Shown: one piece after another, positions 50,042-64,000 of the stretch | How the letters are laid out: every line of letters starts with the position of its first letter | Numbering within the stretch: the first letter of the stretch is position 1 | DNA from: Nitrosomonadales bacterium | Lineage (GTDB): Bacteria > Pseudomonadota > Gammaproteobacteria > Burkholderiales > Gallionellaceae | Direction of reading: 5' to 3' | Assembly (NCBI GenBank): GCA_016199835.1 | Contig: JACQFX010000012.1 | Span: 1 to 64,000, forward strand | DNA length: 64,000 nt | Notes under the pieces: model-generated | The model's database searches: none | Told to the model about the DNA's origin: nothing | What the model saw: the letters and a program-made list of their open reading frames with translations, nothing else | Made by a program: the position numbers and the translations under genes

Positions 50042-50073
50042 AATGCTGTTTCTTTCGGTGTAAACCAACTCTT

Positions 50074-50117
50074 GTAGGTCGGGCTACGCCCGACGCGGCG
50101 GGCAAAGCCCGCCCTAC
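50074..50117. repeat. REP/REPIN-type repeat
   Basis: GTAGGTCGGGCTACGCCCGAC and an inverted unit ending GCCCTAC, in the gap between dsrN and the DsrC paralogue. Confidence 0.8.
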
Positions 50118-50153
50118 GATGAGTGTCATGGATTATCAGCTTCGAGAAGCCAC

Positions 50154-51644
50154 TCATAGCACCGCCATCAAAGGCTGCGCTTCCGCCCCCTGCTTGACTC
50201 GCCGCACAAAGGCGACAAAACGTGCCGCCCAGTAGCAACTGCCTATGGTGCGCAGATGGGTATAGGAGGCGAGCAGGTTGTGCAGGACGAGGCCGTCGTG
50301 CTTGCCATCTATGCCGTGGCCGCGCGTGACGCGGTAGGCGAATTTTGAATCGGGCGGCAGGTTCTCCAGGCTGGAGTAGTGGAACTCGTGCGCGCGAATT
50401 TCCTTGGCGGGGACATTCGGGCGCGGCCACGGATGTTCTGTATTCTCGGCAAGATGCACGTAGCCACGTCCGACCGGTTTGTTGTGCATCACCACGTCGC
50501 CGGGGATGGCGCCGACCATAGGGTAAGTCTTGTCCTGATAACTGATCTGCCGCGTCAGATACATCAGACCGCCGCATTCGGCATAGGTTGGCATGCCGCC
50601 TTCGATGGCGCGTTTGATCTCGGCGCGCAGCGAGGTGTTGGCGGCGAGTTCGGCGGCGCAGACTTCGGGGAAGCCGCCGCCTATGTACAGCCCATCCACG
50701 TCGGGCAGGTGCGCATCGTTGATCGCGTCGAACGGAACCAGTTCGGCTCCGGCGTCGGTGAGCGCGTCGAGGTCGTCGGCGTAGTAGAAACCGAAGGCGC
50801 GGTCGCGCGCGATGCCGATGCGAATCTTTTCCTGCGACGGGAGGGCCGTGATCTCGGCAGGAGATTGAAAAATGCTTTTTACGATTGCCCCTTCTCCCCC
50901 AGCCCCTCTCCCGCGAAGGGGGGAGGGGAGCAGTGGGAGAGGGTTGGGGAGAGGGCTAGGGGGCAGCGCTTCCTTGGTGGTGAGCGCGAGCAGCCGGTCG
51001 AGGTCGACCTGTTCCGCGATGGCCGCTCCAATCTGCTGGATGCGCTTGCTGGCTTCGCCCGATTCATTGCTCGGCATCAGGCCAAGATGGCGTTCGACTA
51101 TCATCAATCGCTCATCGTGTTGGATCGCGCCTATCACCGGCACATCGGTGTAATGTTCGATGACTTCGCGCAGCTTGGCTTCGTGGCGTGAGCCACCGAG
51201 GTTGTTGAGGATGACGCCTGCGATGTGGATGTCCGGGTCGAATGCCTGATAGCCGAGGATCAGGGGTGCGATGCCGCGCGTCATGCCGCGCGCGTCTATC
51301 ACCAGCACCACGGGCAGGTCGAGCAGCTTGGCCAGTTCGGCGTTGCTGTTGCTGCCGTCGAGTGCGAGGCCGTCATACAGCCCTTTGTTGCCTTCGACGA
51401 TGTTGATATCGGAGTTGTGACGCACGAAGGTGGAGACCACATCGTCGCGTTCCATCAGGTACAGGTCGAGGTTGCGGCAGGCGTGGCCGCAGGCTTGCGA
51501 TAGCCACATCGGGTCGATGTAGTCAGGGCCTTTTTTGTAGGGCTGCACCGACAGTCCGCGTGCGCTGAGCGCTGCGCACAAACCTATGCTGATCGTCGTC
51601 TTGCCCGAAGATTTGTGGGCGGCGGAGATCAGCATGCGGTTCAT
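50154..51644 (-). CDS. dsrN: DsrN, cobyrinic acid a,c-diamide synthase homologue
   Basis: 496 residues, CbiA/CobB family. It probably amidates sirohydrochlorin or sirohaem to the amide form used by DsrAB. The N-terminal P-loop region SAAHKSSGKTTISIGLCAAL and the C-terminal glutamine-amidotransferase triad region with Cys in MPTYAECGGLMYLT are present. Between the two domains (about residues 225-255) lies a Pro/Leu/Gly-rich in-frame insert encoded by a C/G-rich intergenic-type repeat. Siroamide use is known for A. vinosum Dsr; the exact reaction here is inferred. Confidence 0.9.
   Translation of the reverse strand: MNRMLISAAHKSSGKTTISIGLCAALSARGLSVQPYKKGPDYIDPMWLSQACGHACRNLDLYLMERDDVVSTFVRHNSDINIVEGNKGLYDGLALDGSNSNAELAKLLDLPVVLVIDARGMTRGIAPLILGYQAFDPDIHIAGVILNNLGGSRHEAKLREVIEHYTDVPVIGAIQHDERLMIVERHLGLMPSNESGEASKRIQQIGAAIAEQVDLDRLLALTTKEALPPSPLPNPLPLLPSPLRGRGAGGEGAIVKSIFQSPAEITALPSQEKIRIGIARDRAFGFYYADDLDALTDAGAELVPFDAINDAHLPDVDGLYIGGGFPEVCAAELAANTSLRAEIKRAIEGGMPTYAECGGLMYLTRQISYQDKTYPMVGAIPGDVVMHNKPVGRGYVHLAENTEHPWPRPNVPAKEIRAHEFHYSSLENLPPDSKFAYRVTRGHGIDGKHDGLVLHNLLASYTHLRTIGSCYWAARFVAFVRRVKQGAEAQPLMAVL
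50887..50963. repeat. C/G-rich palindromic repeat inserted within dsrN
   Basis: A long imperfect palindrome of CCCCTCTCCC and GGGAGAGGG blocks lies inside dsrN and encodes the odd Pro-Leu-rich linker. It resembles the intergenic elements at 13137 and 59409. The length keeps the frame open. Confidence 0.7.
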
Positions 51645-51686
51645 TTCAGGATTCCTTTTTTACCGGTACGCATACGAAGAAATTTC

Positions 51687-51707
51687 GTAGGTCGGGCTAC
51701 GCCCGAC
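51687..51707. repeat. REP-type repeat, single unit
   Basis: GTAGGTCGGGCTACGCCCGAC, one hairpin unit in the 70-nt gap between dsrP and dsrN. Confidence 0.78.
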
Positions 51708-51714
51708 GGTAGAT

Positions 51715-52908
51715 CTAATGATTATCCTTGCGCCGATCCGGCGCATCGTGCGGCAGCAGCGAATCGATCACCCGCACGCCTATGATGGTGGTCAAAAACG
51801 CGATGGCGAGGCCGCCGAAACCGAGCAGGAATTCGGGCAGGGAAGGGTGGTAGCTTGCGATCTGCCCGTCGCCGAAGCTGCTGCTGACTTCATAGCCGGG
51901 GAAGATGGAAAGCGGGAAGACCTGGCCGCCGATGATGAAGACATAGAGCAGGGCGAAGCTGCCGAGGATAACCAGCAGCGATGCGGCGACGACGAATCGG
52001 GGTTTCCCCAGACTGGGGAGGTAGATCAACAGCAACGGCAGCAAACTGCCGAACACGACATAGCCGCCCCAGAACAAACAGGGGAAGATGCCGCCATCGC
52101 GCAGGATGAAATGCTCGAATGCCGTCTGCCTGGCGAAATACAGGTTAGTCAGGTGGTAAGCCGCGACCAGATAGAGTGTGCCGATGACGAAGATGCCCAA
52201 CAGGTTTCTCATGCGTTGCAGGATCGCCGGGTCATGCACTTTGCCGTTCCACGCATACATCGCCGATTGCACGACATGGAACACGGCCAGCCCCCAGGTG
52301 AAGGACATGACCAGGAACATCGGCGGCAGTATTGCCGAGGCGTAAGCCTGGCGCGCGACGAGGAAGGCGAAGATCAGCCCGGTGCCGGTGGTGAGGATGA
52401 TGCGCCAGGTGAACACCGCGAGACCGATGGGCTTGACCCAGTGGTTCATGCGCTGTTCCAGCAAAGTCCACATGTAGAGCGAGACGAAAAAGAACAATCC
52501 GCTGTACAGCGGCAGGTTCCACGCGAACACCGAGGTCGGGTTGAAATTGGTCGCGGCGACGATCACGCGCTCGGGGCGTCCGAGATCGAGCATGAGGACG
52601 GCAAGACCGCCTGCCAGCATCGCGATTGAGAGCATGCCGGCCAGGGGTGCGCGCCCTTTGTAAGCGACTTTGCCGAATACCGAGCCGATGGCGGCGACGT
52701 TGAGCACGCCGGAGGCAGCGACGATCATGAAGATGGCGAACACATGCGGCATGCCCCACACCACCTGCTGGTTCATGCCGGTGACGACGTGGCCGTGCTC
52801 TTCCATGTAGTGCGCGGCGCCGAACCCCATGGCGGCGATGAACAGGCCGAACGCGACCAGCAGGTAGAAGTAACGGGATTCGGATTGGCCGAAAGTTTTT
52901 TGTGTCAT
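51715..52908 (-). CDS. dsrP: DsrP, NrfD-like membrane subunit
   Basis: 397 residues with about ten TM helices of the NrfD/PsrC fold. It is part of the DsrMKJOP membrane complex, where DsrP exchanges electrons with the quinone pool. The start at MTQKTFGQSESRY (52908) is chosen because the open frame upstream is REP-derived. It follows dsrO across a REPIN-filled gap. Helices such as FAIFMIVAASGVLNVAAIGS and AFLVARQAYASAILPPMF are typical. Confidence 0.92.
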   Translation of the reverse strand: MTQKTFGQSESRYFYLLVAFGLFIAAMGFGAAHYMEEHGHVVTGMNQQVVWGMPHVFAIFMIVAASGVLNVAAIGSVFGKVAYKGRAPLAGMLSIAMLAGGLAVLMLDLGRPERVIVAATNFNPTSVFAWNLPLYSGLFFFVSLYMWTLLEQRMNHWVKPIGLAVFTWRIILTTGTGLIFAFLVARQAYASAILPPMFLVMSFTWGLAVFHVVQSAMYAWNGKVHDPAILQRMRNLLGIFVIGTLYLVAAYHLTNLYFARQTAFEHFILRDGGIFPCLFWGGYVVFGSLLPLLLIYLPSLGKPRFVVAASLLVILGSFALLYVFIIGGQVFPLSIFPGYEVSSSFGDGQIASYHPSLPEFLLGFGGLAIAFLTTIIGVRVIDSLLPHDAPDRRKDNH

Positions 52909-52912
52909 GAGC

Positions 52913-52964
52913 GTAGGTCGGGCTTTGCCCGACAATTTGTTTCGGCGGGCAGAGCCCGACCTAC
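52913..52964. repeat. REP/REPIN-type repeat
   Basis: GTAGGTCGGGCTTTGCCCGAC and an inverted unit ending GACCTAC, in the dsrO-dsrP gap. Confidence 0.8.
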
Positions 52965-52996
52965 ATGGTTCGTGATGATTGATTTGTGGATCATGT

Positions 52997-53734
52997 TCAT
53001 AGCCCCACAAACGAAATGCCGGGATTCAACCCGAGGTCGGCGCGCAGTTGCGAGGTGGTGACGCTGCGGATGCGCAGGTAGATTTCGCTGTTCGGGTCGT
53101 TGAGGTCGCCGAACAGGATGGCTCTATGCCCGGCCTTGGCGCAGGCTTCGACGCATGCAGGTGTTCCGCCTTTATCCACGCGATGCACACACAGCGTGCA
53201 ACTCTCCACCGTGCCCTTGCCGCGCGGCATGTCGGAATCGTGATCCAGCACCGGCTCATGCACGAACGAACGCGCCTTGTACGGGCAGGCCATCATGCAG
53301 TAACGGCAGCCGATGCAGCGGTGCTTGTCCACCAGCACGATGCCGTCGGCGCGCTTGAACGAGGCATTGGTCGGGCACACGTCCACGCAGGGCGGCTCGG
53401 CGCAGTGCTGGCACATCATGGGCAGGGAAGACTGTCGCCCGGTGGATAGCTGTTTCAGGTCCACCTTGCGTATCCATTGCACGTCGGTCGAGGTCCTGGC
53501 TTCTGGCCAGCCGTTCTCCTTGCTGCATGCGCTCACGCATTCGTTGCAGCCTGTCTCGCATTGGGTGGTGTCGATCAACATGCCCCAGCGCACGGTGCTC
53601 GATGCAGGTTCGCCCAGCGGGCGCCCGTGGGCGAAGTCGAACAGCAGCATGCCTGGCGCGATGGCGATGCCAGCGACGGCAGCCGATGCCTTGGTTAAAA
53701 ACTGCCGGCGGTTGAGATTTACTTCGTCGCTCAT
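52997..53734 (-). CDS. dsrO: DsrO, periplasmic Tat-exported ferredoxin subunit
   Basis: 245 residues. The N-terminal NRRQFLTKASAAVAG is a Tat signal, so it acts in the periplasm. Four [4Fe-4S] Cys clusters are visible: CETGCNECVSAC, CQHCAEPPCVDVCP, CIGCRYCMMACP and CTLCVHR...CVEAC. It passes electrons between DsrJ and DsrP in the DsrMKJOP complex. Its ATG overlaps the dsrJ stop (ATGA). Confidence 0.93.
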   Translation of the reverse strand: MSDEVNLNRRQFLTKASAAVAGIAIAPGMLLFDFAHGRPLGEPASSTVRWGMLIDTTQCETGCNECVSACSKENGWPEARTSTDVQWIRKVDLKQLSTGRQSSLPMMCQHCAEPPCVDVCPTNASFKRADGIVLVDKHRCIGCRYCMMACPYKARSFVHEPVLDHDSDMPRGKGTVESCTLCVHRVDKGGTPACVEACAKAGHRAILFGDLNDPNSEIYLRIRSVTTSQLRADLGLNPGISFVGL

Positions 53735-54087
53735 TTGGCGGCCTCCGCGACTGCTTTGCGTTTGCTGGAATGGCACTCGAAACAATCCGGTTTCACTGCG
53801 GCGTATTCGTGGCAGCCCTGGCAGAAATGCTCGCTGCTGCCGAGCACGTTGTCGTCCTTCTTGCTGGCGTGGCAGTTCACACATTCGGCGAGGCTGTATT
53901 TGCCGCCGCGTATGCCGAGTCGCATGGTGTCGTCGCGTTGATGCACGATCATCTTCATGTGGTTCTTGCGCATGAACTTTGGATCGTCTACGCACTGTCC
54001 GCCACGGCCGATGTCGAGCTTGGGCGCGAGCGAGCCAGCCCAGGCGGACGTTATGGCGAGCAGCAGGATGAATAAAACAATTCTCAT
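53731..54087 (-). CDS. dsrJ: DsrJ, periplasmic trihaem cytochrome c
   Basis: 118 residues with an uncleaved-type signal anchor (MRIVLFILLLAITSAWA). Exactly three haem sites are present: CVNCH, CQGCH and CFECH, as in A. vinosum DsrJ. A Cys in GGQCVDDPKF may be the unusual haem ligand described for DsrJ. It belongs to the DsrMKJOP complex. The start at 54087 is chosen because the frame upstream is only REP and dsrL antisense sequence. Confidence 0.92.
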   Translation of the reverse strand: MRIVLFILLLAITSAWAGSLAPKLDIGRGGQCVDDPKFMRKNHMKMIVHQRDDTMRLGIRGGKYSLAECVNCHASKKDDNVLGSSEHFCQGCHEYAAVKPDCFECHSSKRKAVAEAAK

Positions 54088-54098
54088 ATTGGCTTTTC

Positions 54099-54150
54099 GT
54101 AGGTCGGGCTGTGCCCGACAAATCGTTCCGGCGGGCAGAGCCCGCCCTAC
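54099..54150. repeat. REP/REPIN-type repeat
   Basis: GTAGGTCGGGCTGTGCCCGAC and an inverted GGCGGGCAGAGCCCGCCCTAC unit, in the dsrL-dsrJ gap. Confidence 0.8.
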
Positions 54151-54154
54151 AAAA

Positions 54155-56116
54155 TTATTCTCCGAGTCCCATTTGTATATACCCCGTCGGACACACATCC
54201 TTGCAGATGTGGCAACCGATGCATTTGTCGTAATCGGTGTCCACGTAACGCCCCACGGATGCCTTTGACTTCGGCACACGATACACGGCGGTCTGCGGGC
54301 AGTACACCACGCAGTTGTCGCACTCGAAACACAGGCCGCAGCTCATGCAGCGCTTGGCTTCGGCCACGGCTTCGGCTTCGCTCAAGGGATTCAGGCGCTC
54401 TTCGAAATTGCCCAGCGCGGTCTTCTCGTCCAGCGTGATGACGTGGCGATGTTTGCGCTCGGTGTAAGCAAAATGGCCGAGGAACAGTTCTTCGTGCGGG
54501 ATCACATAGCGGCCGGAACGGTTGTCGAAGTTGTGTACGGCCATGTCCGAGTTGCAGGTGCCGCGCATCGGTTCTTCCGCTTCCTTCACGGTCAATCCCT
54601 TTTCTGCCATCTTGCGCATGATGTCGAAGGTATGCACGTCTATCTTCGGGCGTTTCTCCAGCTCTTCGCCTGCCAGGAAGCGGTCTATGCCTTCCGCCGC
54701 AATCGCGCCGTGGCCGATGGCCGTGGTCAGCAGGTGCGGGCGGATCACGTCGCCGCCCGCGAAGGTGCCGGGCGTGTTGGCGATCTGGTAATTCTTGTCG
54801 GCGTTGATCGCGCCGCGCCCGTTGTCGAATTCTTCGAGGCCGGTGAAGTCCACGGCCTGGCCGATGGCGGACACGATCAAGTCAGCAGCGATGTCCTGCT
54901 CGCTGCCGGCCTTCTGGTTGATCTCAAGCTTGCCGCCCACGAACTTGGCTTCGCATTCCGCGACGCGCAACGCGGTGGCGCGACCGTTGGAGTCCTTCAC
55001 GATACCGACCGGCACCATGCTGCCGCGTATCGCGATGCCTTCGGCCAGGGCTTGTTCGATCTCGTGCTTGTTGGCCTGCATCTTGTCTATAGCGAACACC
55101 GAAGTCAGCGTGACATCCGCGCCTTGCTTGGCGGAGATGTCAGCCACATCCTGCGCCAGGCGTCCGGCGATGGCGTGTTCGGCATCGGTCGGTTTGGCAT
55201 GTTCGATGTGGCCCAGACGGCGCGCTACGGTGGCCACGTCTATCGAAGTATCGCCGCCACCCACCACCACCACGCGCTTGCCCACATGCTGCAAACGCCC
55301 GTCGTTGAAGGCGCGCAGGAAAGCCGTCGCGGTGACCACGTTGGGGGCTACACTGTCCGGTGTGGGCAGTGCGCGACCGGCTTGTGCGCCCATGCCGAGG
55401 AATACCGCGTCGTAGTCCTTGCGGATTTGTTCCAGCGTGATGTCTTTGCCGATGTGGCAATTCAATTTCGCTTCGACGCCGAGGTCGAGGATGCGCTGTA
55501 TCTCTGCATCCAGCACCTTGCGCGGCGTGCGGAAGCCGGGGATGCCGTAGCGCATCATGCCGCCGAGGAATTCATGCTCGTCGAAGATGGTGACGGCATG
55601 GCCCTTCATCACCAACTGATAAGCGCAAGACAGGCTGGCCGGGCCGCCGCCGATGAGGGCGACTTTCTTGCCGGAAGGTTTCACATCCGGCTTGTTGAAT
55701 TTAAGGTTGTTGGCGATCGCGTATTCGCCGAGGAAATGTTCGACCGAGTTGATGCCGACGTGGTCTTCCACTTCGTTGCGGTTGCAGCCGCTCTCGCATG
55801 GAGCTGGGCAGACGCGGCCCATCACCGAGGGGAAGGGATTGGCTTCGGTCAGCACGCGCCAGGCGTATTCCTGCCAGGGCATAGACCTTCCATCAGCCCC
55901 GAGCGGCGGCTTTTCCATGCCGCGCGCGATCTGCAAGTAGCGGCGGATGTCTTCGCCCGCCGGGCAACTGCCCTGGCAGGGCGGTGTGGACTGGATGTAG
56001 GTCGGGCATTTGTAGCTATAGCCCGCCTGGAAAATTTTGTCGTGTGGGCGCACCTTGTTGTCGCCGTCTTTGTAACGGCGGAAGGTGAGTTTTGTTTCCT
56101 GTATGGGTGCTGACAT
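54155..56116 (-). CDS. dsrL: DsrL, NAD(P)H-dependent oxidoreductase partner of DsrAB
   Basis: 653 residues. The N-terminal glutamate-synthase-small-subunit-like domain has Cys motifs CQGSCPAGEDI and CPAPCESGCNR, and two nucleotide-binding folds (ALIGGGPASLSCAYQL for FAD; VVVGGGDTSIDVA for NAD(P)). The C-terminal ferredoxin domain has CMSCGLCFECDNCVVYCP and CIGCHICKDVCP. It accepts electrons released by DsrAB during sulfur oxidation. Its presence, with dsrEFH, marks the oxidative type. Two ATGs (56119 and 56116) are adjacent; the second is better spaced from AAGGAG. Confidence 0.93.
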   Translation of the reverse strand: MSAPIQETKLTFRRYKDGDNKVRPHDKIFQAGYSYKCPTYIQSTPPCQGSCPAGEDIRRYLQIARGMEKPPLGADGRSMPWQEYAWRVLTEANPFPSVMGRVCPAPCESGCNRNEVEDHVGINSVEHFLGEYAIANNLKFNKPDVKPSGKKVALIGGGPASLSCAYQLVMKGHAVTIFDEHEFLGGMMRYGIPGFRTPRKVLDAEIQRILDLGVEAKLNCHIGKDITLEQIRKDYDAVFLGMGAQAGRALPTPDSVAPNVVTATAFLRAFNDGRLQHVGKRVVVVGGGDTSIDVATVARRLGHIEHAKPTDAEHAIAGRLAQDVADISAKQGADVTLTSVFAIDKMQANKHEIEQALAEGIAIRGSMVPVGIVKDSNGRATALRVAECEAKFVGGKLEINQKAGSEQDIAADLIVSAIGQAVDFTGLEEFDNGRGAINADKNYQIANTPGTFAGGDVIRPHLLTTAIGHGAIAAEGIDRFLAGEELEKRPKIDVHTFDIMRKMAEKGLTVKEAEEPMRGTCNSDMAVHNFDNRSGRYVIPHEELFLGHFAYTERKHRHVITLDEKTALGNFEERLNPLSEAEAVAEAKRCMSCGLCFECDNCVVYCPQTAVYRVPKSKASVGRYVDTDYDKCIGCHICKDVCPTGYIQMGLGE

Positions 56117-56173
56117 CATCCGTCTCCTTCGTATCCTAAAAACCTTTTTTGCCACAGAGATCACAGCAAAAAC

Positions 56174-56225
56174 GCAGGTCGGGCTTCGCCCGACAATTCG
56201 TTCCGGCGGGCAGAGCCCGCCCTAC
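56174..56225. repeat. REP/REPIN-type repeat
   Basis: GCAGGTCGGGCTTCGCCCGAC (one base off GTAG) and an inverted unit ending GCCCTAC, in the dsrK-dsrL gap. Confidence 0.78.
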
Positions 56226-56257
56226 AAAATCGTTTGTGGCTATCATCGTTTCCATAT

Positions 56258-57790
56258 TTATTTATCTCCCAGCTTGATCGCATTACTCACCAACTGATGC
56301 ACCCCGCCGACCACGCGCCGGTCAAATCCATACATGGGCAGCACCTTGGTAAATTGCGCCTTGCAGATGGCGCAGATGGTCGCCATGAAATTCACGTCGT
56401 GTGAATCTTTTACTTGTTGCAGCGCTTCCATGCGCGGCAGCGCGCCCTTTACCCGCAGGTCGAGCAACTCGTCGGTGAGCAATCCGCCGCCGCCGCCGCA
56501 GCAGAAAGTTTGCTCGCGCGTCGCACCGTCGCGCATCTCGACGAAGTTGTTGGCGCAGGCCTTGATGATGTTGCGCGGAATCTCGAACTGGCCGCCCGCG
56601 AAGTCGCCCATGCGCGAGGCGCGCGCGACGTTGCACGAATCGTGGAAGGTGATGATGTGTTTGTCGTTGGCTTCTTTGTCGAACGACAGTCCGCCGCGTT
56701 CGATCAAATCCCAGGTGAATTCGCAGATATGCATAGGCTGCTTGTAGCGCAGGTCGAGCTGGTTCTGTAGCTGGATGGCGTAGGGATCGGAAGCGCCCGC
56801 GCCAACACCGATCAGCGTGTTCCAGAAGCTGTAGGCGACGCGCCAAGCATGGCCGCATTCGCCTACCACGATACGCTTCACGCCGAGTTCCAGCGCGGCT
56901 TCGCGCACGCGCAGTGCGATCTTGCGCAACTGCTCGTAGTTGCCGATGAACATGCCGAAGTTGCCCGCTTCCGAGGCCATCGAGGATAGCGTCCAGCTCA
57001 CGCCGGAAGCGTGGAATACCTTGGCGTAACCGATCAGGCTGTCGATGTGCGGCTCGGCGAAGAAGTCGGCAGAAGGCGTGATCAGCAACACTTCCGCGCC
57101 CTTCACATCAAGCGGGAAGCGCACGTCTATGCCGGTATCTTCCTTGACGTCTTCCTCCAGTCCTTCGAGCGTGTCGAGCAGCGCGGGTGGCGGCAGGCCG
57201 AGGTTGTTGCCGATCTTGTGTACCTTGCCGATGATCTCGTTGGAATATTTCTGGCCGTAGCCCACCGAGTCGAGGATTTCCTTGGCCGCCATGGTGATCT
57301 CGGCGGTATCAATTCCGTAAGGGCAGAACACCGAGCAGCGGCGGCATTCGGAGCACTGGTTGTAGTAACTGTACCACTCGTCCAGCACTTCCTTGGTCAG
57401 GTCGCGCGCACCGACCAGTTTGGGGAACAATTTTCCGGGCAGCGTGAAGTAACGCCGATACACGCTACGCATTAAATCCTGACGCGCGACCGGCATGTTC
57501 TTCGGGTCTTGCGTGCCGATGAAATAATGGCACTTGTCGGAGCAGGCGCCGCAATGTACGCAGGCATCGAGATAGACTTTCAGCGAGCGGTACTTGGACA
57601 GCAACTCGCCCATTTTGGCGATGACTGCATCGTGCGTTACCTGCCAGTCGTCGGCCAGCTTGCCGGGGAAGCCGATGGCTTCCTGTATTTTGTCGCTGGC
57701 GACATAAGGCTTGGACTCCACCATCGCATCCGGCTTCAGCGCAGGAATGATGGGGATGATGCGGTAGGCGGGGGCGGTGATCTCGGCCAT
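56258..57790 (-). CDS. dsrK: DsrK, HdrD-like iron-sulfur subunit
   Basis: 510 residues. Two ferredoxin-type clusters (CVHCGACSDKCH and CSECRRCSVFCP) precede CCG-domain motifs, including HDSCNVARASRMG and FCCGGGGGLL, which in HdrD-like proteins hold a noncubane cluster acting on disulfides. It is the likely site of DsrC persulfide/trisulfide chemistry on the cytoplasmic side of the DsrMKJOP complex. It starts directly after the dsrM stop codon, with no gap. Confidence 0.94.
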   Translation of the reverse strand: MAEITAPAYRIIPIIPALKPDAMVESKPYVASDKIQEAIGFPGKLADDWQVTHDAVIAKMGELLSKYRSLKVYLDACVHCGACSDKCHYFIGTQDPKNMPVARQDLMRSVYRRYFTLPGKLFPKLVGARDLTKEVLDEWYSYYNQCSECRRCSVFCPYGIDTAEITMAAKEILDSVGYGQKYSNEIIGKVHKIGNNLGLPPPALLDTLEGLEEDVKEDTGIDVRFPLDVKGAEVLLITPSADFFAEPHIDSLIGYAKVFHASGVSWTLSSMASEAGNFGMFIGNYEQLRKIALRVREAALELGVKRIVVGECGHAWRVAYSFWNTLIGVGAGASDPYAIQLQNQLDLRYKQPMHICEFTWDLIERGGLSFDKEANDKHIITFHDSCNVARASRMGDFAGGQFEIPRNIIKACANNFVEMRDGATREQTFCCGGGGGLLTDELLDLRVKGALPRMEALQQVKDSHDVNFMATICAICKAQFTKVLPMYGFDRRVVGGVHQLVSNAIKLGDK

Positions 57791-58510
57791 TTATTTCTCC
57801 AGATCCGCCGCCCACGGCGCGATATGGCGCTTCTCGCGCGGATTGTCGATCTGGTTGCGTGAGGGCGAGAAGAATACACCGGGTGCATGCAGCAATTTGC
57901 TGAACGGGAAGATCAGCATCAGCGCTGCGACCAGTAGCAGATGCAGGTAGAGCACGCCGTCTGCGGGCAAGGGTTGCAAATTTAAATGCATCATGCCCAG
58001 GAAGAAATTCTTCACGCCAACGATGTCAGTGTGCGAGATGAATTTCATGGACAGGCCTGAGGCGGCGATGGCAAGCAGCAGCGCCAGCATGAGATGATCC
58101 GACGGTGTTGAGATGTAACGGATGCGCTCGACGAAGATGCGCCGTATCCACAAGCCGCATAGTCCGGCGCCCATGAGCAAGCCGGCGTAGATGCCGAATG
58201 GCTGGATCAACGCGACCCACGACCAGACCGGTTCGGTGAAGTAGCGCAGATGACGGATCAGCACCAATGCCAGTCCGGCGTGGAACATCATGCCTGCCCC
58301 CCATATCCACAGATTGCTCTTGAACAGGCTCTCGAATAAAAAAACTTCGCGCGCCATGCGTAACGCAACTCCACCTTGGGTGGTCGGCGCCGGTGTCGTG
58401 GGGATGAGCAGTGGCGCCGGTGTACGCGCGAAGTCATAAACCTTGTACCCGAGTCCCAGTGCCAGCACGAGGATCGCGAGATAGAAAAGGAGGGCGAAGA
58501 GGAGGCTCAT
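57791..58510 (-). CDS. dsrM: DsrM, cytochrome b-like membrane subunit
   Basis: 239 residues with about five TM helices, related to the NarI gamma subunit, with His residues for two b haems (MMFHAGLALVLIRHLR, MKFISHTDIVG, HLLLVAAL). It anchors DsrK and links it to the quinone pool. The ATG at 58510 is preceded in frame by a GTG at 58513; neither has a strong RBS. The 97-nt gap to dsrC contains short AATCCTG-type direct repeats only. Confidence 0.91.
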   Translation of the reverse strand: MSLLFALLFYLAILVLALGLGYKVYDFARTPAPLLIPTTPAPTTQGGVALRMAREVFLFESLFKSNLWIWGAGMMFHAGLALVLIRHLRYFTEPVWSWVALIQPFGIYAGLLMGAGLCGLWIRRIFVERIRYISTPSDHLMLALLLAIAASGLSMKFISHTDIVGVKNFFLGMMHLNLQPLPADGVLYLHLLLVAALMLIFPFSKLLHAPGVFFSPSRNQIDNPREKRHIAPWAADLEK

Positions 58511-58607
58511 CACTCGGGATTCAGGATTAAAGACTCAGGATTCAGAAGGCGGGATTGAGGTGAAGCCACCAGCTAATCCCCAATCCTGCTCCTGCAATCC
58601 TGCTCTA

Positions 58608-58943
58608 TTAAACGCATCCGGTCGGCTTTGGCAAACCCGCGATCTTGCAAGCCTGTTTTGCCGGACCGTAGGGGAACAGGTCATACAGGTATTGGCTGTT
58701 GCCCTTTTCCGCGCCGAAACGCTTGCCTATGGCCTTGGTCAGCACGCGGACTGCCGGGGCGATCTGGTATTCGTCGTAGTACTCGCGCAGGAAATTCACG
58801 ACTTCCCAATGGTTGTCGGTCATGTTTACGTTCTCGCCTTTGGCGATGTAATCGGCAACATCCTTGTTCCATTCGGCGAGGTTGATCAGATAACCTTCTT
58901 CGTCTGTTTCGTAGCTCTTGCCGCTTACTTCGATGGTTGCCAT
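58608..58943 (-). CDS. dsrC: DsrC, sulfur-carrier protein
   Basis: 111 residues with both conserved C-terminal cysteines, Cys99 and Cys110, ten residues apart in the flexible arm KQACKIAGLPKPTGCV. It carries sulfur from DsrEFH to DsrAB and presents a trisulfide or disulfide to DsrK. RBS AGGAGAAG before the ATG at 58943. This is the functional DsrC of the cluster, in contrast to the Cys-less paralogue at 49688. Confidence 0.96.
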   Translation of the reverse strand: MATIEVSGKSYETDEEGYLINLAEWNKDVADYIAKGENVNMTDNHWEVVNFLREYYDEYQIAPAVRVLTKAIGKRFGAEKGNSQYLYDLFPYGPAKQACKIAGLPKPTGCV

Positions 58944-58970
58944 GTTTCTTCTCCTGTTGATGATTATCAT

Positions 58971-59014
58971 GTAGGTCGGGCTACGCCCGACATGGCGGGC
59001 AGAGCCCGCCCTAC
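58971..59014. repeat. REP/REPIN-type repeat
   Basis: GTAGGTCGGGCTACGCCCGAC and an inverted GGCGGGCAGAGCCCGCCCTAC unit, in the dsrH-dsrC gap. Confidence 0.8.
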
Positions 59015-59044
59015 GTTAAATGTGGGGTGTGTCCCCACCCTGCG

Positions 59045-59341
59045 TTAAAGCCATGACTGGCAATTCTTGTTGCTGGCGACGAGGTCTACAAAGCCGCCGT
59101 AATCTACCGTCGCAACGCCTTCGATGATGCGGTCGGCGAGGCCGCGCGCTTCGAGGTCGGGCAGCAGGACGAGAACCTTGAGTTTGTCCATCGCTTCTTT
59201 CATCTTGCCTTCGAGCGCGCTGCCTTTGGTTGCGGCATACACCGCGTCCTCGATCAGCAGGATTTCGCCGGATTCTGCGACGCGCAAACAGGAATCGAGT
59301 GCTCCGTTGCTTAAGGGGGATTTGTTGATGATGTGCAGCAT
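59045..59341 (-). CDS. dsrH: DsrH, sulfurtransferase subunit
   Basis: 98 residues, TusB/DsrH family. It forms the DsrE2F2H2 hexamer that relays sulfur to DsrC. Cys18 in ALDSCLRVAE corresponds to the conserved DsrH cysteine. The start at 59341 has GAGGAAAACAGAC upstream; the frame continues further but is not homologous. Confidence 0.92.
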   Translation of the reverse strand: MLHIINKSPLSNGALDSCLRVAESGEILLIEDAVYAATKGSALEGKMKEAMDKLKVLVLLPDLEARGLADRIIEGVATVDYGGFVDLVASNKNCQSWL

Positions 59342-59408
59342 GTCTGTTTTCCTCTCAAACGGGCTGGCACTAATGCAGCCCTTGATAATGTAATTCGTGA
59401 CGCCCGTT

Positions 59409-59450
59409 ACCCTCTCTCCAGCCCTCTCCCGCAAGCGGGCGAGAAGGATA
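59409..59450. repeat. C-rich intergenic repeat between dsrF and dsrH
   Basis: ACCCTCTCTCCAGCCCTCTCCC followed by GCAAGCGGGCGAGAAGG, the same type as the repeat inside dsrN. Confidence 0.6.
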
Positions 59451-59474
59451 AAGTCTCGCTACGCGAGTTTCACG

Positions 59475-59840
59475 TTAAAAGCTCAGGACTACGTCTTGTT
59501 GATCCATCAGTTCGCCTATTTCTTTCTTGCCCAGCACGGTGACATCCACCAGCAGGTCACCCTCAGAGAGGCCGCGCGCTTCCATGGATTCCTTTTCGAC
59601 ATACAGTTTCTCGATGTCGTAGCCTTCCAGCGCACGGTAAGTGGGAGAGAAGTTCTTGGTCTCTATGCCTTTGGTCTGCTGCCCCTTCTTTAACTGATAG
59701 ACGCCGTCGTCCATAAAGGCCAGCGACACTTCCTGGTCAAAAGCGGCGGTGATCAGCACGACTTCCAGCGATTCCAGCGCGTAGATGGTGCCGTAGGGCG
59801 CCTTGCGGTTGACGAACATGAATTTCTTGATATCGCTCAT
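59475..59840 (-). CDS. dsrF: DsrF, sulfurtransferase subunit
   Basis: 121 residues, TusC/DsrF family, starting MSDIKKFMFVNRKAPYGTIYALESLEV. It has no conserved catalytic Cys, which is normal for DsrF; it is structural in the DsrEFH hexamer. RBS TAGGAGAGATC spans the dsrE stop, so dsrE and dsrF are tightly coupled (8-nt gap). Confidence 0.93.
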   Translation of the reverse strand: MSDIKKFMFVNRKAPYGTIYALESLEVVLITAAFDQEVSLAFMDDGVYQLKKGQQTKGIETKNFSPTYRALEGYDIEKLYVEKESMEARGLSEGDLLVDVTVLGKKEIGELMDQQDVVLSF

Positions 59841-59848
59841 GATCTCTC

Positions 59849-60208
59849 CTAGTCGCCAAAGGTGACCATGCGGTCGGCCTGGATACCGGCTTCGACCAGT
59901 TGCCCCAGACCGGAGATGCGGAATCCCGGTGCGAGGTTCTCGTCCTTGATGCCGCGACGCAATGCTGCCGCCACGCACACCACCAGGTCTATCTTGTGCT
60001 CTTCCGCCAGCTTGCTCCAGCGTGCCACGATGTTGCGGTCGTCTTGCGGCGGCTCGGTCAGGCGCGAGGCGTTGTTCACGCCGTCGTGATAGAAGAACAC
60101 GCGGAAGATCTCGTGGCCTTTTTCCAGCGCGGCCTTGCAGAACAGGTAAGCGGTATCGCTTGCCTGGTGCTGGTAGGGGCCTTCGTTGATGACTATGCCG
60201 AATTTCAT
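59849..60208 (-). CDS. dsrE: DsrE, sulfurtransferase subunit
   Basis: 119 residues, TusD/DsrE family. Cys78 in HKIDLVVCVAAALRRG sits at the same position as the sulfur-binding Cys78 of A. vinosum DsrE. It passes sulfur to Cys of DsrC. It is separated from dsrB by a REPIN (60247). Confidence 0.94.
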   Translation of the reverse strand: MKFGIVINEGPYQHQASDTAYLFCKAALEKGHEIFRVFFYHDGVNNASRLTEPPQDDRNIVARWSKLAEEHKIDLVVCVAAALRRGIKDENLAPGFRISGLGQLVEAGIQADRMVTFGD

Positions 60209-60246
60209 TTTAATTCACCTTAAATCCGGATGAGCCGGAATCCAAT

Positions 60247-60290
60247 GTAGGTCGGACTTTGCCCGACATGGTGGGCAGAACCCACCCTAC
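60247..60290. repeat. REP/REPIN-type repeat
   Basis: GTAGGTCGGACTTTGCCCGAC and an inverted unit ending CACCCTAC, slightly degenerate, in the dsrB-dsrE gap. Confidence 0.76.
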
Positions 60291-60323
60291 AAAATCATGC
60301 AAAATTTCATACACTGCCATCGT

Positions 60324-61403
60324 TCAGAAACGAATATGCGTCGAAGAATTGAGGTTCGCCCGCGAACCTCTCCAGTCGTCTATCAGATACTTGGTGAACG
60401 GCAGCCCGGTTTTTTCGAAGAAGCGCGGCCAGCCGATGCGGTCGATCCAGTCGGCCATGCGCTCCCACGGACGGGCATCTTCCTTGTATGCGTAAAGAAT
60501 CTTCTTCACCTGCTCGGAAACTTCCGGCCAGCGCGGTGCGTTGTTGGGCAGGCCGGACGCGACCATTTTCATGAAGGTCGGCTTGCCGCGCGCGTTGGAG
60601 TTCTTGCCGCCGACCCAGATTGCCAGCTTGGAGTATTCCGGGTCGTTGATCTGCATCGGCGGGCAGGGTGGGTAGCAGGCGCCGCAGCACATACACTTGG
60701 CTTCGTCGATTTCCAGCGAAGGTTTGTCGTTCACCATGGCGGGGCGGATCGCCGCGACCGGGCAACGCGCCACCACCGCCGGACGCTCGCACACGTTGGC
60801 GACCAGGTCATGGTTGATCTTGGGCGGCTTGGTATGCTGCACGATGATGGCGAGGTCGGCCTGGCCGCCGCAGTTGATTTCGCAGCAGGAGGTCGAGATG
60901 TGCACGCGGTTGGGCATCTCTTCGCGCTTGAATTCATCGTACAGTTCGTCCATCAGCGCCTTCACCACGCCGGAAGCGTCGGTGCCGGGGATGTCGCAAT
61001 GCAGCCAGCCCTGGGTGTGGGCAATCATGGTCACCGAGTTGCCGGTGCCACCGACGGGGAAGCCATTTTTTTCGAGTTCGGCGATCAGCGGTGCAACCTT
61101 GCTCTCGTTCGACACCATGAATTCGATGTTGGAACGGATGGTGAAGCGCACGCGCCCTTCGGCGAAGGTATCGGCGATGTCGCACAGCTTGCGTATGGTG
61201 TACAGATCCATCTGGCGCTGCGTGCCGGCGCGCACCGACCACACTTCATCGCCCGTGTGCGAGACATGGTGCAGCACGCCGGGGCGCGGCCTGTCGTGAT
61301 ATTTCCAGTTGCCGTAATTCTTCGCCAGCAGCGGGTGCAGATATTTTTTGTTGTCGGGTACGCCAGTCTCTTTGGCGCGACGCATCTGTGCAGGTGCATT
61401 CAT
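60324..61403 (-). CDS. dsrB: DsrB, reverse dissimilatory sulfite reductase beta subunit
   Basis: 359 residues. The sirohaem/[4Fe-4S] region STSCCEINCGGQADLAI and the ferredoxin domain CMCCGACYPPCPPMQI are intact. With DsrA it forms the A2B2 enzyme that oxidises DsrC-bound sulfur to sulfite in the cytoplasm. It starts 11 nt after the dsrA stop. The oxidative direction is inferred from dsrL and dsrEFH nearby and the lack of dsrD. Confidence 0.95.
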   Translation of the reverse strand: MNAPAQMRRAKETGVPDNKKYLHPLLAKNYGNWKYHDRPRPGVLHHVSHTGDEVWSVRAGTQRQMDLYTIRKLCDIADTFAEGRVRFTIRSNIEFMVSNESKVAPLIAELEKNGFPVGGTGNSVTMIAHTQGWLHCDIPGTDASGVVKALMDELYDEFKREEMPNRVHISTSCCEINCGGQADLAIIVQHTKPPKINHDLVANVCERPAVVARCPVAAIRPAMVNDKPSLEIDEAKCMCCGACYPPCPPMQINDPEYSKLAIWVGGKNSNARGKPTFMKMVASGLPNNAPRWPEVSEQVKKILYAYKEDARPWERMADWIDRIGWPRFFEKTGLPFTKYLIDDWRGSRANLNSSTHIRF

Positions 61404-61414
61404 GTGTTATCTCC

Positions 61415-62710
61415 TCAGGCGGCTTTTTTGGCGGCGTTGATTTTGGCGACTTCGTCGTCCCAACCGTCGGTGCGGACGTAGGGGTTCATGCGCGGCGAGT
61501 TGACCATCGCAGGATCGGCAGGAACTTCCATCGCTTCGAGGAAATTGGCCAGACCGATGCGTTCTATCATCTCGCCGGTACGCTCATGTTCGAGCGCGTT
61601 CTCGGCGAAGAAGTCTATGGTGCGCTGCGCGAAGTCCACCAGTTTCTCCACGTCGTCATCGGTGTCCAGCTTGACGAACGGCAGGATCACGGTGCCCAGC
61701 AGGCCGCCGATCTTGAGGTGGCTTTTGCCGCCCACCAGCACAGTCGCGCCCTTGTCCTTGCCGGGAGCCAATGCACCGGTCATCACGTTGATGCAGTGCA
61801 TGCAGCGCACGCAGTCGCGGTTGTCGATTTCCACCGCATGGGTGTCGCTGACCTTGACGGAAGAAATGTGCTCGCCGTTTTTTACCTTGCCGATTTCCTT
61901 CAACTGAAAGGTCTTGGTCGGGCAGCGCGCCACGACGTCGTTTACCAGTTCGTCCATACCGTGTTTGGCGAACCATTTTTTCGCCAGCCCTTCGTCGGTG
62001 CGGATGTTGTCGCGCCAGGTGCCGATCACGGCCATGTCGGAGCGCTGGATCGAGTTCATGCAGTCGTTGGGGCACCCGGAGAATTTGAATTTGAACTTGT
62101 AGGGTAGAGAGGGGCGGTGGATATCGTCGAGGAATGTGTTGATGATCGCGCCGTGCACCTTGGCTTCGTCGTAGCAGGACTGCTCGCAGCGTGCAGCGCC
62201 CACGCAGGACATCGAAGTGCGTACCGCAGGGCCTGCGCCGCCGAGATCGAAACCCATTTCGTTGAATTCGTCGAAGGCCTTCTGCACGTTCTCGGTAGTC
62301 GCGCCCTGGAACATGATGTCGCCGGACTGGCCGTGGAAGGCGATCAAGCCTGAGCCATGCTTTTCCCATACGTCGCAGAATTTGCGCAGCGTGTCGGTGT
62401 CGTAGTGCATGCCGGGCGGAGGCATCACGCGCAGGGTGTGGAACTCGGCGGCGTCCTTGAATTTGGGCGTGCCGTCTTCATTTTTCAATTCGGTGAAACG
62501 CGGAATCACGCCGCCGCCATAGCCGAACACACCGACCGTGCCGCCTTTCCAGTAGCCCTTCTTGGTCTGGTAGGAGGTTTCAAGTTGGCCGAGCAAGTCA
62601 ACCGCCATGTCGCTTTCCTTGGCGAGTCGTTTGATGCCTGTGACAAAGCTGGGCCATGGCCCGCTCTCGAGCTGATCCAGATTCGGTGTATCATGCAGTT
62701 TCTTGGCCAT
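61415..62710 (-). CDS. dsrA: DsrA, reverse dissimilatory sulfite reductase alpha subunit
   Basis: 431 residues from MAKKLHDTPNLDQ (ATG at 62710; AAGGAAT upstream). The sirohaem-[4Fe-4S] Cys pairs are visible in SCVGAARCEQSCYDEA and FSGCPNDCMNS; the inserted ferredoxin domain has CVRCMHC. It is the first gene of the dsr cluster. The 207-nt divergent gap to 62918 carries a GTAAAT/ATTTAC palindrome and a G6/C6 hairpin. Confidence 0.96.
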   Translation of the reverse strand: MAKKLHDTPNLDQLESGPWPSFVTGIKRLAKESDMAVDLLGQLETSYQTKKGYWKGGTVGVFGYGGGVIPRFTELKNEDGTPKFKDAAEFHTLRVMPPPGMHYDTDTLRKFCDVWEKHGSGLIAFHGQSGDIMFQGATTENVQKAFDEFNEMGFDLGGAGPAVRTSMSCVGAARCEQSCYDEAKVHGAIINTFLDDIHRPSLPYKFKFKFSGCPNDCMNSIQRSDMAVIGTWRDNIRTDEGLAKKWFAKHGMDELVNDVVARCPTKTFQLKEIGKVKNGEHISSVKVSDTHAVEIDNRDCVRCMHCINVMTGALAPGKDKGATVLVGGKSHLKIGGLLGTVILPFVKLDTDDDVEKLVDFAQRTIDFFAENALEHERTGEMIERIGLANFLEAMEVPADPAMVNSPRMNPYVRTDGWDDEVAKINAAKKAA

Positions 62711-62773
62711 GAAGATTCCTTTCGTTTTGGTTCGTTTCAACCCCAAGTTCTATCTGGCTTGGCGGGCAATTCA

Positions 62774-62789
62774 GTAAATCCTAATTTAC
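62774..62789. promoter_or_regulatory. Palindrome upstream of dsrA, candidate operator
   Basis: Perfect inverted repeat GTAAAT-CCTA-ATTTAC, 64-79 nt before the dsrA start and in the divergent region shared with the Cas6-like operon. It is a candidate site for a dimeric regulator; no regulator gene is visible in the window. Confidence 0.45.
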
Positions 62790-62833
62790 GGCTATGTTGA
62801 CTTATCTGTCGGGCATGCGAAATAACCCGGATG

Positions 62834-62854
62834 GGGGGGTAGATCGCTCCCCCC
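62834..62854. other. G6/C6 hairpin with CTATAG repeats
   Basis: Six G and six C around a 9-nt loop, followed by CTATAG-G-CTATAG (62854-62866). It lies 64 nt before the 72-aa gene at 62918. It could be a leader hairpin of that operon. Confidence 0.4.
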
Positions 62855-62917
62855 TATAGGCTATAGACGCTGCCACCCCGGATTGCGCTCAATAGCGCCT
62901 GAATACACGGAGAAGAA

Positions 62918-63136
62918 ATGACGCAGACCACCACGCTGGACAAGTTCAGAATCCCGCTCGGCAATCAGGAGATCGAATTGCAGCAGATAGACCATGCTGA
63001 TGGCGGCATGAGCTTGCTACGCATTCGCATACGTGAAGCCCGGCGCTTCACCATTTTTGATATCGATCCGGCCACGGCGCTGCACTGGAGTGAGGTGATG
63101 CGCAGTTGGGCCGAGGCGCAGCAGGATGGGAAATAA
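62918..63136 (+). CDS. 72-residue protein of unknown function
   Basis: Starts with ACGGAGAAGAA before the ATG. The protein is small, acidic and soluble, with alternating strands and one helix (IPLGNQEIELQQIDHADGGMSLLRIRIRE). No family is recognised. It overlaps the Cas6-like gene by 11 nt, so the two are translationally coupled, and it is divergent from dsrA. It may be a partner of the Cas6-like protein or of Dsr; neither is shown. Confidence 0.68.
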   Translation: MTQTTTLDKFRIPLGNQEIELQQIDHADGGMSLLRIRIREARRFTIFDIDPATALHWSEVMRSWAEAQQDGK

Positions 63137-63728
63137 AATTCCGGACATGGTCGACATGGTGTTCGACCTGCGGGGCGGTCTCGTTCCAGCAGACTACGCC
63201 TTTGCTTTGTGGGATGAGGCCGCGTACATTCTGCCCTGGCTGGAGGCCGAGGAAACGGCTGGGATGCTGCCGCTGCGAGGCTCGGTGAGTGGCACGGACT
63301 GGTTGCTGCCGCAGCGTGCCAAGCTGGTATTGCGCCTGCCTGTTGGGGTCGCGTCGAAAGCTGTGGCGCTGTCTGGGCAGGAACTGGCTCTGGGTTCCTG
63401 CATGTTGCAGGTGGGCAAAGGCAAGGAGCGTCCTTTGCAGGCATATACGACGCTGCATGCGCAGATGGTGGAAAGTGCAGATGAAGAGGAAAGATTCCTC
63501 GCCGATATGGAAGAACAATTGCGCGCGCTGGAAGTTTCCTGCAAGTGGATCTGCGGCAAGCGTCATTCGGTAAGTGGAGCAGGGAGATCGCTCGACGGTT
63601 ATAGCCTGGTGCTGCATGACCTCAAGCCGGAAGCCTCGCTGCAAGTGCAGCGCGCCGGATTGGGTGGCAATCGCCGTTTCGGTTGTGGTGTGTTTGTGCC
63701 GTACAAGGACATATCCGGCCTGGATTGA
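63126..63728 (+). CDS. Stand-alone Cas6/Cmx6-like RNA-binding protein
   Basis: 200 residues. The layout matches the Cas6/Cmx6 (type I-MYXAN) group as I know it: MVDMVFDLRGGLVPADYAFALWDEA at the start, LPLRGS, an RLPV-type strand, a central helix and the C-terminal Gly-rich loop LQVQRAGLGGNRRFGCGVFVPYK. Cas6 proteins bind or cleave CRISPR repeat RNA. No CRISPR array or other cas gene is in the window. Where I recall a conserved His (after PxD), this protein has Tyr24; other His are at 111, 147 and 164. It may bind RNA without cutting. It lies between a 72-aa gene and a DsrC-like gene, opposite dsrA. Confidence 0.72.
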   Translation: MGNKIPDMVDMVFDLRGGLVPADYAFALWDEAAYILPWLEAEETAGMLPLRGSVSGTDWLLPQRAKLVLRLPVGVASKAVALSGQELALGSCMLQVGKGKERPLQAYTTLHAQMVESADEEERFLADMEEQLRALEVSCKWICGKRHSVSGAGRSLDGYSLVLHDLKPEASLQVQRAGLGGNRRFGCGVFVPYKDISGLD

Positions 63729-63752
63729 TTGTTTTTACAGATGGAGGTGAAT

Positions 63753-64000
63753 GTGGGATATATGATCGCAGGAGTGGAAGTTGAAACCGATGCAGAAGGT
63801 TATCTGCTGGAACCGGATTACAGCGACGAGATTGTGAATGTCATAGCGGCGGCGGACGGGATAGAATTGACGCCTGCGCATTGGCAGATCATCAATTATT
63901 TGCGTGAGCAGTATCGCGAACACGGGCATACGCCGAGTTTCCGCAATATGCTGAAAGACGTGCAGGCGTTCTGGCCTGAAGCAGACAGCAAGGCGCTGTA
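63753..64000 (+). CDS. DsrC/TusE-like protein, cut by window end
   Basis: About 82 visible residues: VEVETDAEGYLLEPDYSDEIVNVI, LTPAHWQIINYLREQYREHGHTPSFRNMLKDVQ, a clear DsrC/TusE fold. The C-terminal arm with its cysteines lies beyond the edge, so its chemistry is unknown. Possible starts are ATG 63741, GTG 63753 (GGAGGTG just before it) and ATG 63762. It is the third gene of the small operon with the Cas6-like gene, and the third DsrC-family gene in the window. Confidence 0.82.
   Translation, partial: MGYMIAGVEVETDAEGYLLEPDYSDEIVNVIAAADGIELTPAHWQIINYLREQYREHGHTPSFRNMLKDVQAFWPEADSKAL

Follow-up and report, generated by a model that had tools for sequence, protein, structure and literature searches.

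In one betaproteobacterial order, dsr+ genomes carry a Cas6 protein of the Cmx6 family at a fixed position next to dsrA. It forms one clade and occupies one place and one operon with no CRISPR parts beside it, and we consider it very probable that this Cas6 has been captured and domesticated into the dsr locus. The arrangement points to recruitment of an immunity protein into energy metabolism.

Organization of the locus

The DNA analyzed here, a stretch of 64,000 nucleotides from a Nitrosomonadales bacterium (the window), contains a dsr operon on the reverse strand and, divergent from it on the forward strand, the accessory operon that includes Cas6. The accessory operon is headed by a 72-aa DUF6967 protein (62918..63136), followed by the 200-aa dsr-associated Cas6/Cmx6-family protein (63126..63728) and by a DsrC-like gene, here DsrC2, which lacks the DsrC cysteines (63753..64000, running past the window end to a stop at contig position 64082; PF04358 E 3.3e-32 for the whole frame). 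The best start of DsrC2 is the GTG at 63753, directly 3' of a GGAGG. On the other side of a divergent intergenic region (62711..62917) lies dsrA (61415..62710, start at 62710; TIGR02064 E 2.0e-150), the head of the dsr operon. It is followed by open frames for dsrB, dsrE, dsrF, dsrH, dsrC, and dsrM (57791..61403), an order also seen in related loci wherever the contigs extend far enough and shared with the dsr operon of other sulfur bacteria (dsrABEFHCM). The remainder of the operon (49691..57790) encodes DsrK, a flavoprotein that we take to be DsrL-like from its gene position, DsrO, a DsrP-like NrfD protein, a CobB-type protein, and a further DsrC-family gene. The latter, at 49691-50068, marks the far end of the operon and brings the DsrC-family genes of the locus to three.

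An earlier, sequence-only reading of the window had described the forward-strand genes as a three-gene operon. We confirm its gene positions, the 11-nt overlap between DUF6967 and Cas6, the gap of about 24 nt to the DsrC-like frame, and the divergence from dsrA, but three genes proved too few. The contig extends 3.7 kb beyond the window, and this extension (extended locus L072) reveals the rest of the accessory operon, where TusA-TusA, a conserved protein of 198 aa, and a TauD-like dioxygenase are encoded.

Family identity and predicted fold

Cas6 proteins bind and cut CRISPR repeat RNA. The window protein matches the Cas6 profile PF09559 with an E value of 1.2e-49 and 169.3 bits (curated cut-off, 26.7) and TIGR02807 with 138.6 bits (equivalog cut-off, 98.85), and PADLOC also assigns it to Cas6. 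Its closest solved relative by sequence is the Cas6 of a type I-B CRISPR-associated transposon (CAST; phmmer E 8.1e-11). An AlphaFold2 model built with four sequences is of modest quality, with a mean pLDDT of 67.5, block means of 73-91 at residues 11-100, and values below 50 at residues 173-200. In a Foldseek search with this model, the type I-B CAST Cas6 chain 8fcu_B ranks first (E 8.5e-11), archaeal Cas6 chains come next, and each of the seven top hits is a Cas6 or a Cas6-related chain. Aligned to CAST Cas6 with VIA, the model gives a Z score of 13.9 over 172 residues (model residues 5..177) at an rmsd of 3.9. The family membership that had been proposed from the letters of the gene is borne out by both profiles and by the predicted fold, which, within the limits of a modest model, matches the tandem ferredoxin/RRM-like fold of Cas6.

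The likeness to the Cas6/Cmx6 of type I-MYXAN systems (TIGR02807, PF09559) therefore comprises profile scores above cut-off, the tandem-RRM fold, and the glycine-rich loop. Unlike type I-MYXAN Cas6/Cmx6, the dsr-linked protein adjoins no cas genes or array and is fixed beside dsrA. The CAST Cas6 (PDB 8fcj/8fcu, chain B) resembles it in serving outside adaptive immunity. According to its entry titles, however, CAST Cas6 still belongs to a guide-RNA effector complex, whereas the dsr locus has no such partner gene.

Distribution of the dsr-linked Cas6

We detected PF09559 in 58 of 300 genomes sampled from the window's order, as a single copy in each; it is present in 58/64 dsr+ genomes versus 0/236 dsr- genomes. 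The dsr+ genomes comprise 61 above the TIGR02064 cut-off and three whose matches are split, at 283-349 bits (G014, G161, and G261). Within the order, Cas6 is thus nearly as conserved as the dsr genes. Six dsr+ genomes are without it: four (G083, G132, G217, and G277) have DUF6967 beside dsrA, and in the other two the dsr contig stops inside dsrA (G145) or about 275 nt short (G122). DUF6967 itself is found in 54 of the 300 genomes, 50 of them with Cas6, and eight of the 58 Cas6 carriers are without DUF6967.

At the level of the phylum, PF09559 is present in 5 of 398 genomes, all within the window's order. TIGR02064 (E <= 1e-60) is present in 53 of 396 genomes, including 48 dsr+ genomes outside the order, and these counts come from two samples that may differ in membership. 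In this respect the locus differs from dsr operons outside the order. A search of viral contigs with the CAST Cas6 segment gave no relative. L146-L152, L155, and L156 contain additional dsrA genes that share about 67-79% identity with the window DsrA and for which no adjoining dsrB was found; the copy in L155 is cut at a contig end, and that in L156 is in two pieces, like the main dsrA of that genome.

All 58 Cas6 loci, as well as L001-L003, share one arrangement in tblastn searches with the window proteins: dsrA on one strand and, pointing away from it, DUF6967 where present, Cas6, and the DsrC-like gene. The opposite strand reads dsrM-C-H-F-E-B-A as far as the contigs reach. The conserved neighborhood that the earlier reading had asked for beside dsrA is thus present in 58/58 order loci. 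In three loci (L078, L117, and L125), 2-5 kb are inserted between dsrA and the accessory operon.

Absence of CRISPR parts beside the gene

A search for exact 20-mers that recur three times with a spacing of 45-100 nt revealed no array-like repeats in the window or in the 58 related dsr loci, each covered over up to 19.5 kb; the same search recovers the genome's real array. No cas gene is found among the recurrent neighbors of the 58 loci, which are genes of the dsr and accessory operons (not every frame is annotated). The earlier statement that no CRISPR array or other cas gene is present therefore holds within the window but not for the genome, which carries a Cas9-type CRISPR system on contig C56, made up of a Cas9 of 1217 aa that matches HNH_4 and RuvC_III, together with Cas1, Cas2, and an array whose period is 67 nt. 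In this locus (L073:5525-11440), the repeat 20-mer is present in 13 copies. One of the spacers is duplicated, and there are signs of array rearrangement near 10,910-11,060.

Could the dsr-linked Cas6 be the crRNA-processing enzyme for a CRISPR system elsewhere in the genome? Its score above the TIGR02807 equivalog cut-off and the Cas1 match in 18/58 PF09559 carriers would fit such a role. Against it, 40/58 carriers have no Cas1 match, and the place beside dsrA is constant in all 58. The window genome's own system, moreover, is of the Cas9 type, in which the RNA is processed by the external RNase III, as set out in a section of PMC6452270. A profile search of the window genome gave no match to PF01881, Cas6e (PF08798), or Csy4 (PF09618), and we see no sign that its CRISPR-Cas locus uses the 63126-63728 protein as its only Cas6. 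We regard this role as extremely unlikely. As the dsr-linked Cas6 shows, assignment to TIGR02807 is by itself not evidence of CRISPR immunity.

The accessory operon and its sulfur-transfer genes

Across the order, the accessory operon comprises DUF6967, Cas6, DsrC2, a TusA-TusA protein or rhodanese, a conserved protein, and a TauD-like dioxygenase. Among the 54 loci with at least 2.7 kb of sequence left, the conserved protein, which has no Pfam family (L072:14613-15209 in the extended locus), is found in all 54, TusA-TusA or a two-domain rhodanese in 47, and the TauD-like dioxygenase in 43. In many relatives, a rhodanese replaces the TusA-TusA of the window. A LuxR/NarL-type response regulator is encoded near the accessory operon in L129 (12903-13571), and its cluster occurs in four loci.

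DsrC2 resembles the DsrC/TusE family in scoring above the TIGR03342 cut-off (95.6 versus 53.5 bits). Unlike DsrC/TusE, it lacks the C-terminal Cys in 61/61 rows (L001-L003 included) and is paired with Cas6 in 58/58 loci. Both Cys are absent in 56/61 rows, the remaining five (L081, L091, L102, L105, and L109) retaining a Cys at the inner position, and the tail reads GKGGY in place of GCV in 58/61. In the window, the C terminus of DsrC2 is KQGAKVAGLPQPLGKGGY, while the canonical dsrC product of the same locus ends in KQACKIAGLPKPTGCV. The earlier assignment to the DsrC family is supported by PF04358, but DsrC2 is not a normal DsrC, because both DsrC cysteines are missing, and their loss argues against normal DsrC chemistry. 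Cysteine-less members of the DsrC/TusE family are called RspA.

DsrEFH, DsrC, and TusA are relatives of the TusBCDE-TusA relay of tRNA thiolation. For this reason we considered a route in which the Cas6-like protein would bind tRNA and couple tRNA thiolation to sulfur oxidation, a reading that the joint presence of TusA-TusA and a TusE/DsrC-family protein in one operon would favor. The cysteines that are gone from DsrC2 in those 56 rows are the ones required by the relay, and we judge this route very unlikely.

The DUF6967 protein of the window matches Pfam PF22295 (E 1.9e-30), an assignment found in Pfam only, as against NCBIfam. Its predicted fold is bbbb-alpha (pLDDT 86). In a comparison aimed at a PUR/Whirly-type nucleic-acid-binding fold, many of the top Foldseek hits are PUR-alpha repeats, but with E values of 0.56 or worse, and the best VIA Z scores are 6.7 for SAS-6, 6.4 for WGR-bearing PARP chains, and 5.4 for PUR.

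Conserved residues and charge

The alignment contains 58 dsr-linked Cas6 (57 of the 58 order genomes plus L001) and 9 comparison copies. It omits L002 and L003, judged to be copies of L128 and L104, and L124, which has a run of N. Eight of the comparison copies are PF09559-type proteins encoded on cyanobacterial plasmids, and the ninth is a segment of 202 residues taken from the CAST chain. Seven of the eight adjoin cas genes; the other, on a plasmid of Gloeobacter morelensis (L143:4971-7169), has no other annotated cas gene within 5 kb. Its neighbors are hypothetical genes and one of the PAPS-reductase family; it may represent another case of such a protein in non-CRISPR use.

The C-terminal glycine-rich loop, with the consensus GhGxxRxxGhG, is the RNA-contacting part of Cas6 proteins. 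The earlier reading had pointed out this loop in the 200-aa protein, and it proves near-invariant in dsr copies and comparison copies alike: among the dsr copies, G178, G186, and G188 are present in 58/58, G180 in 57/58, and R183 in 54/58. R70 is also kept. Position 24, at the start of helix 1 and usually the catalytic histidine, is His in 39, Tyr in 17, and Asn in 2 of the 58 dsr copies, so that a majority shares the beta1-alpha1 His of type I-MYXAN Cas6/Cmx6. In the 9 comparison copies it is His in 7, Asn in 1, and a gap in 1, the Asn being that of CAST Cas6, which like the window protein lacks the His.

The window Cas6 has Tyr24 and so no catalytic histidine. This Tyr had been read as a hint that cleavage was lost. 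The residue is real but specific to a clade, and the missing His does not settle a loss of cleavage. Cas6-1 of Sulfolobus solfataricus lacks the canonical His, so the residue is not strictly defining for Cas6, and a Cas6 lacking it can remain an enzyme, as described in part of PMC4041471.

Other features set the dsr copies apart. E121 and G144 are private invariants, present in 58/58 dsr copies versus 0/9 comparison copies; K194 occurs in 57/58 versus 0/9 and R64 in 57/58 versus 2/9. In a quick, unrooted maximum likelihood tree, one branch (SH-aLRT 99) separates the dsr copies from the 9 comparison copies. Although the split is unrooted, the tree would fit a single capture followed by inheritance with the dsr locus. 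The dsr copies are also mostly acidic or neutral, with a median pI of 6.4, values above 8 in only 4/58, and 5.3 in the window, whereas all 9 comparison copies have a pI of 9.3-10.2; for scale, the Cas9, Cas2, and Cas1 of the window genome have a pI of 9.5, 9.8, and 6.9. Low pI, private invariants, and a separate clade thus distinguish the dsr-linked protein from type I-MYXAN Cas6/Cmx6, and the low pI speaks against simple Cas6-like RNA binding.

The loss of basic charge favors a protein adaptor, in which the Cas6 fold would no longer bind RNA and would instead connect DsrC2, the TusA-TusA or rhodanese carrier, and the Dsr machinery, for example as a scaffold or chaperone. The sulfur carriers or transferases encoded downstream in 47/54 loci and the new invariant residues E121 and K194 point in the same direction, and the GKGGY tail of DsrC2 suggests a binding partner. 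An adaptor would not, however, need the glycine-rich loop, R70, or the His24 kept in most dsr copies. We see this role as a real, if rather doubtful, possibility.

Search for an RNA target

The gap between dsrB and dsrE carries a stem-loop signal, with a median z of -4.2 and 84% of values under -2 among the 31 gaps of at least 30 nt. Values of z are single-sequence values; a column-shuffle z was set aside, as it is inflated where shuffled alignments fold to near zero. The stem-loop is strong in eight families besides the window, although one f34 locus has a z of +0.5, and in the one family tested for covariation, 8/15 pairs are changed on both sides, a number reached in 1/500 shuffles. The gap between dsrC and dsrM is also structured (median z, -2.9; 45 gaps). 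In the window, the dsrB-dsrE gap is filled by a REP-like hairpin doublet (60240..60299), and the stem-loop at the same place in the eight other families is not of the REP type. REP-like doublets (GTAGGTCGGGCT..GCCCGAC) occur at eight places between 49610 and 60299, in or near gene gaps of the window's dsr operon (dsrB-dsrE and seven others). The region from 49.6 to 60.3 kb holds 14 of the window's 17 matches to the motif, which matches 163 times in the 2.81 Mb of the genome when up to 2 mismatches are allowed.

A dsr mRNA processing enzyme would cut at such border hairpins (dsrB-dsrE, dsrC-dsrM, and the REP doublets of the window) and leave protected 3' ends, resulting in unequal expression of dsrAB, dsrEFHC, and the later genes. 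The structured borders described above are in its favor, and so is the report, in part of PMC4041471, that Cas6-3 cleaves a non-CRISPR RNA in vitro.

Several observations run counter to this enzyme. In 24/53 carriers, the dsrB-dsrE spacing is below 30 nt and leaves no room for a hairpin. Tyr24 is found in 15 of these 24, but also in the window despite its hairpins. Across the 53 rows having both traits, His24 accompanies the hairpin in 26 of 29 rows with it and occurs in 9 of 24 rows without it (Fisher p 1e-4). On the DsrAB tree, however, the trait changes only four times, and independent pairs lend the link no support. Border hairpins also protect mRNA in many bacteria without Cas6. Controls from Cas6-less dsr operons outside the order are mixed, the dsrB-dsrE gaps giving z values of -4.8 (L160), -2.0 (L157), and +1.5 (L158), with no gap in L161. 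We consider a processing enzyme unlikely.

With the hairpin lacking in 24/53 carriers and no phylogenetically independent link with His24, we rejected the dsrB-dsrE hairpin as a common Cas6 target. The REP hairpins, which the sequence-only reading had proposed as a target, are indeed dense in the window's dsr operon but are not a conserved target: the motif is found in only 2/186 loci, both from the window's own genome. No stem sequence is common to more than 7 loci in the eight short gaps compared (dsrM-dsrC, dsrC-dsrH, dsrH-dsrF, dsrF-dsrE, dsrE-dsrB, dsrB-dsrA, DUF6967-Cas6, and Cas6-DsrC2; no shuffle control), and in 7 dsr loci Rfam at gathering score reports nothing but one tRNA. The borders of the dsr mRNA are thus predicted to be structured, with no common Cas6 target shown.

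The divergent intergenic region

An operator-like inverted repeat, (C)TACCC-N4/5-GGGTA, lies in the region that separates dsrA from the accessory operon. Perfect ACCC-N3..8-GGGT pairs occur in 41/56 intergenic regions, against 1.9 expected from dinucleotide shuffles; this count omits regions above 1000 nt (L078, L117, and L125), L002, L003, and four Cas6-less loci. Allowing one mismatch, TACCC..GGGTA is found in 54/63 regions (mononucleotide shuffles: mean, 3.1; largest, 6) and, outside the order, in 1/29 dsrA upstream regions. The window's copy (62824..62841) is degenerate, in one of the 9/63 regions that fail the one-mismatch test. As a Cas6-binding hairpin the repeat was rejected: it is not a Cas6 signature, because four Cas6-less loci of the order carry it too. 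It looks like a putative operator of the divergent promoters, and we take it to resemble NarL-type (LuxR/NarL regulator) sites.

Two small hairpins are predicted before the dsrA ribosome-binding site in family f37 (L086, L094, L099, L104, L110, L114, L121, and L128). Sequence changes there preserve pairing, and the first hairpin is missing in L086.

Proposed role

For the function of the dsr-linked Cas6, we prefer a specific RNA-binding regulator of dsr expression, a reading that we hold at slightly less than even confidence, because the RNA-contacting loop has been retained and the gene, which points away from dsr, has been inherited along with it. Also in favor of such a regulator, transcripts of dsrEFH and dsrC exceed that of dsrA in Allochromatium vinosum on sulfide (PMC3397948). 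Thiosulfate raises dsr genes in Sideroxydans ES-1 (PMC8788666), a strain whose genome is reported to be without CRISPR-related genes (PMC3770913). The protein would bind RNA in a structure-specific manner, with the glycine-rich loop making the contact, and would tune the divergent dsr operon post-transcriptionally, with the cysteine-less DsrC2 and DUF6967 as its likely partners. This role would not require cleavage at the beta1-alpha1 histidine, which has probably been lost in the window's clade. Counting against an RNA-binding regulator, the context of the accessory operon is sulfur transfer rather than RNA metabolism, Cas6-less dsr operons can also have a dsrB-dsrE hairpin, and DUF6967 is missing from eight carriers. 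The protein adaptor comes close behind on account of the low pI and the sulfur-transfer neighbors.

Significance

Where Cas proteins have been recruited outside immunity, mostly whole guide-RNA modules were taken (CAST, type IV). Reviews on the exaptation of CRISPR components list derivatives in transposons, plasmids, and Streptomyces, and the dsr-linked Cas6 is not mentioned in their passages on this subject (PMC6452270, PMC8730458). Neither Cas6 nor CRISPR was found in the text of a paper on dsr synteny (PMC10504309), and open-licence papers that name cas6, dsrC, and dsrA mention cas6, in the parts concerned, only for CRISPR loci. In the open-licence literature, we found no account of a dsr-linked Cas6, an orphan cas6, or DUF6967.

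Here, a single RNA-processing Cas component sits alone in a core energy-metabolism locus, as part of an unstudied accessory operon that adjoins a main sulfur-oxidation system. We tentatively picture, at well under even confidence, a CRISPR-free, domesticated protein that is dedicated to controlling dissimilatory sulfur oxidation at the RNA level and relies on a cysteine-less DsrC to sense the sulfur state. The dsr-linked Cas6 makes it testable what a Cas6 does without CRISPR.
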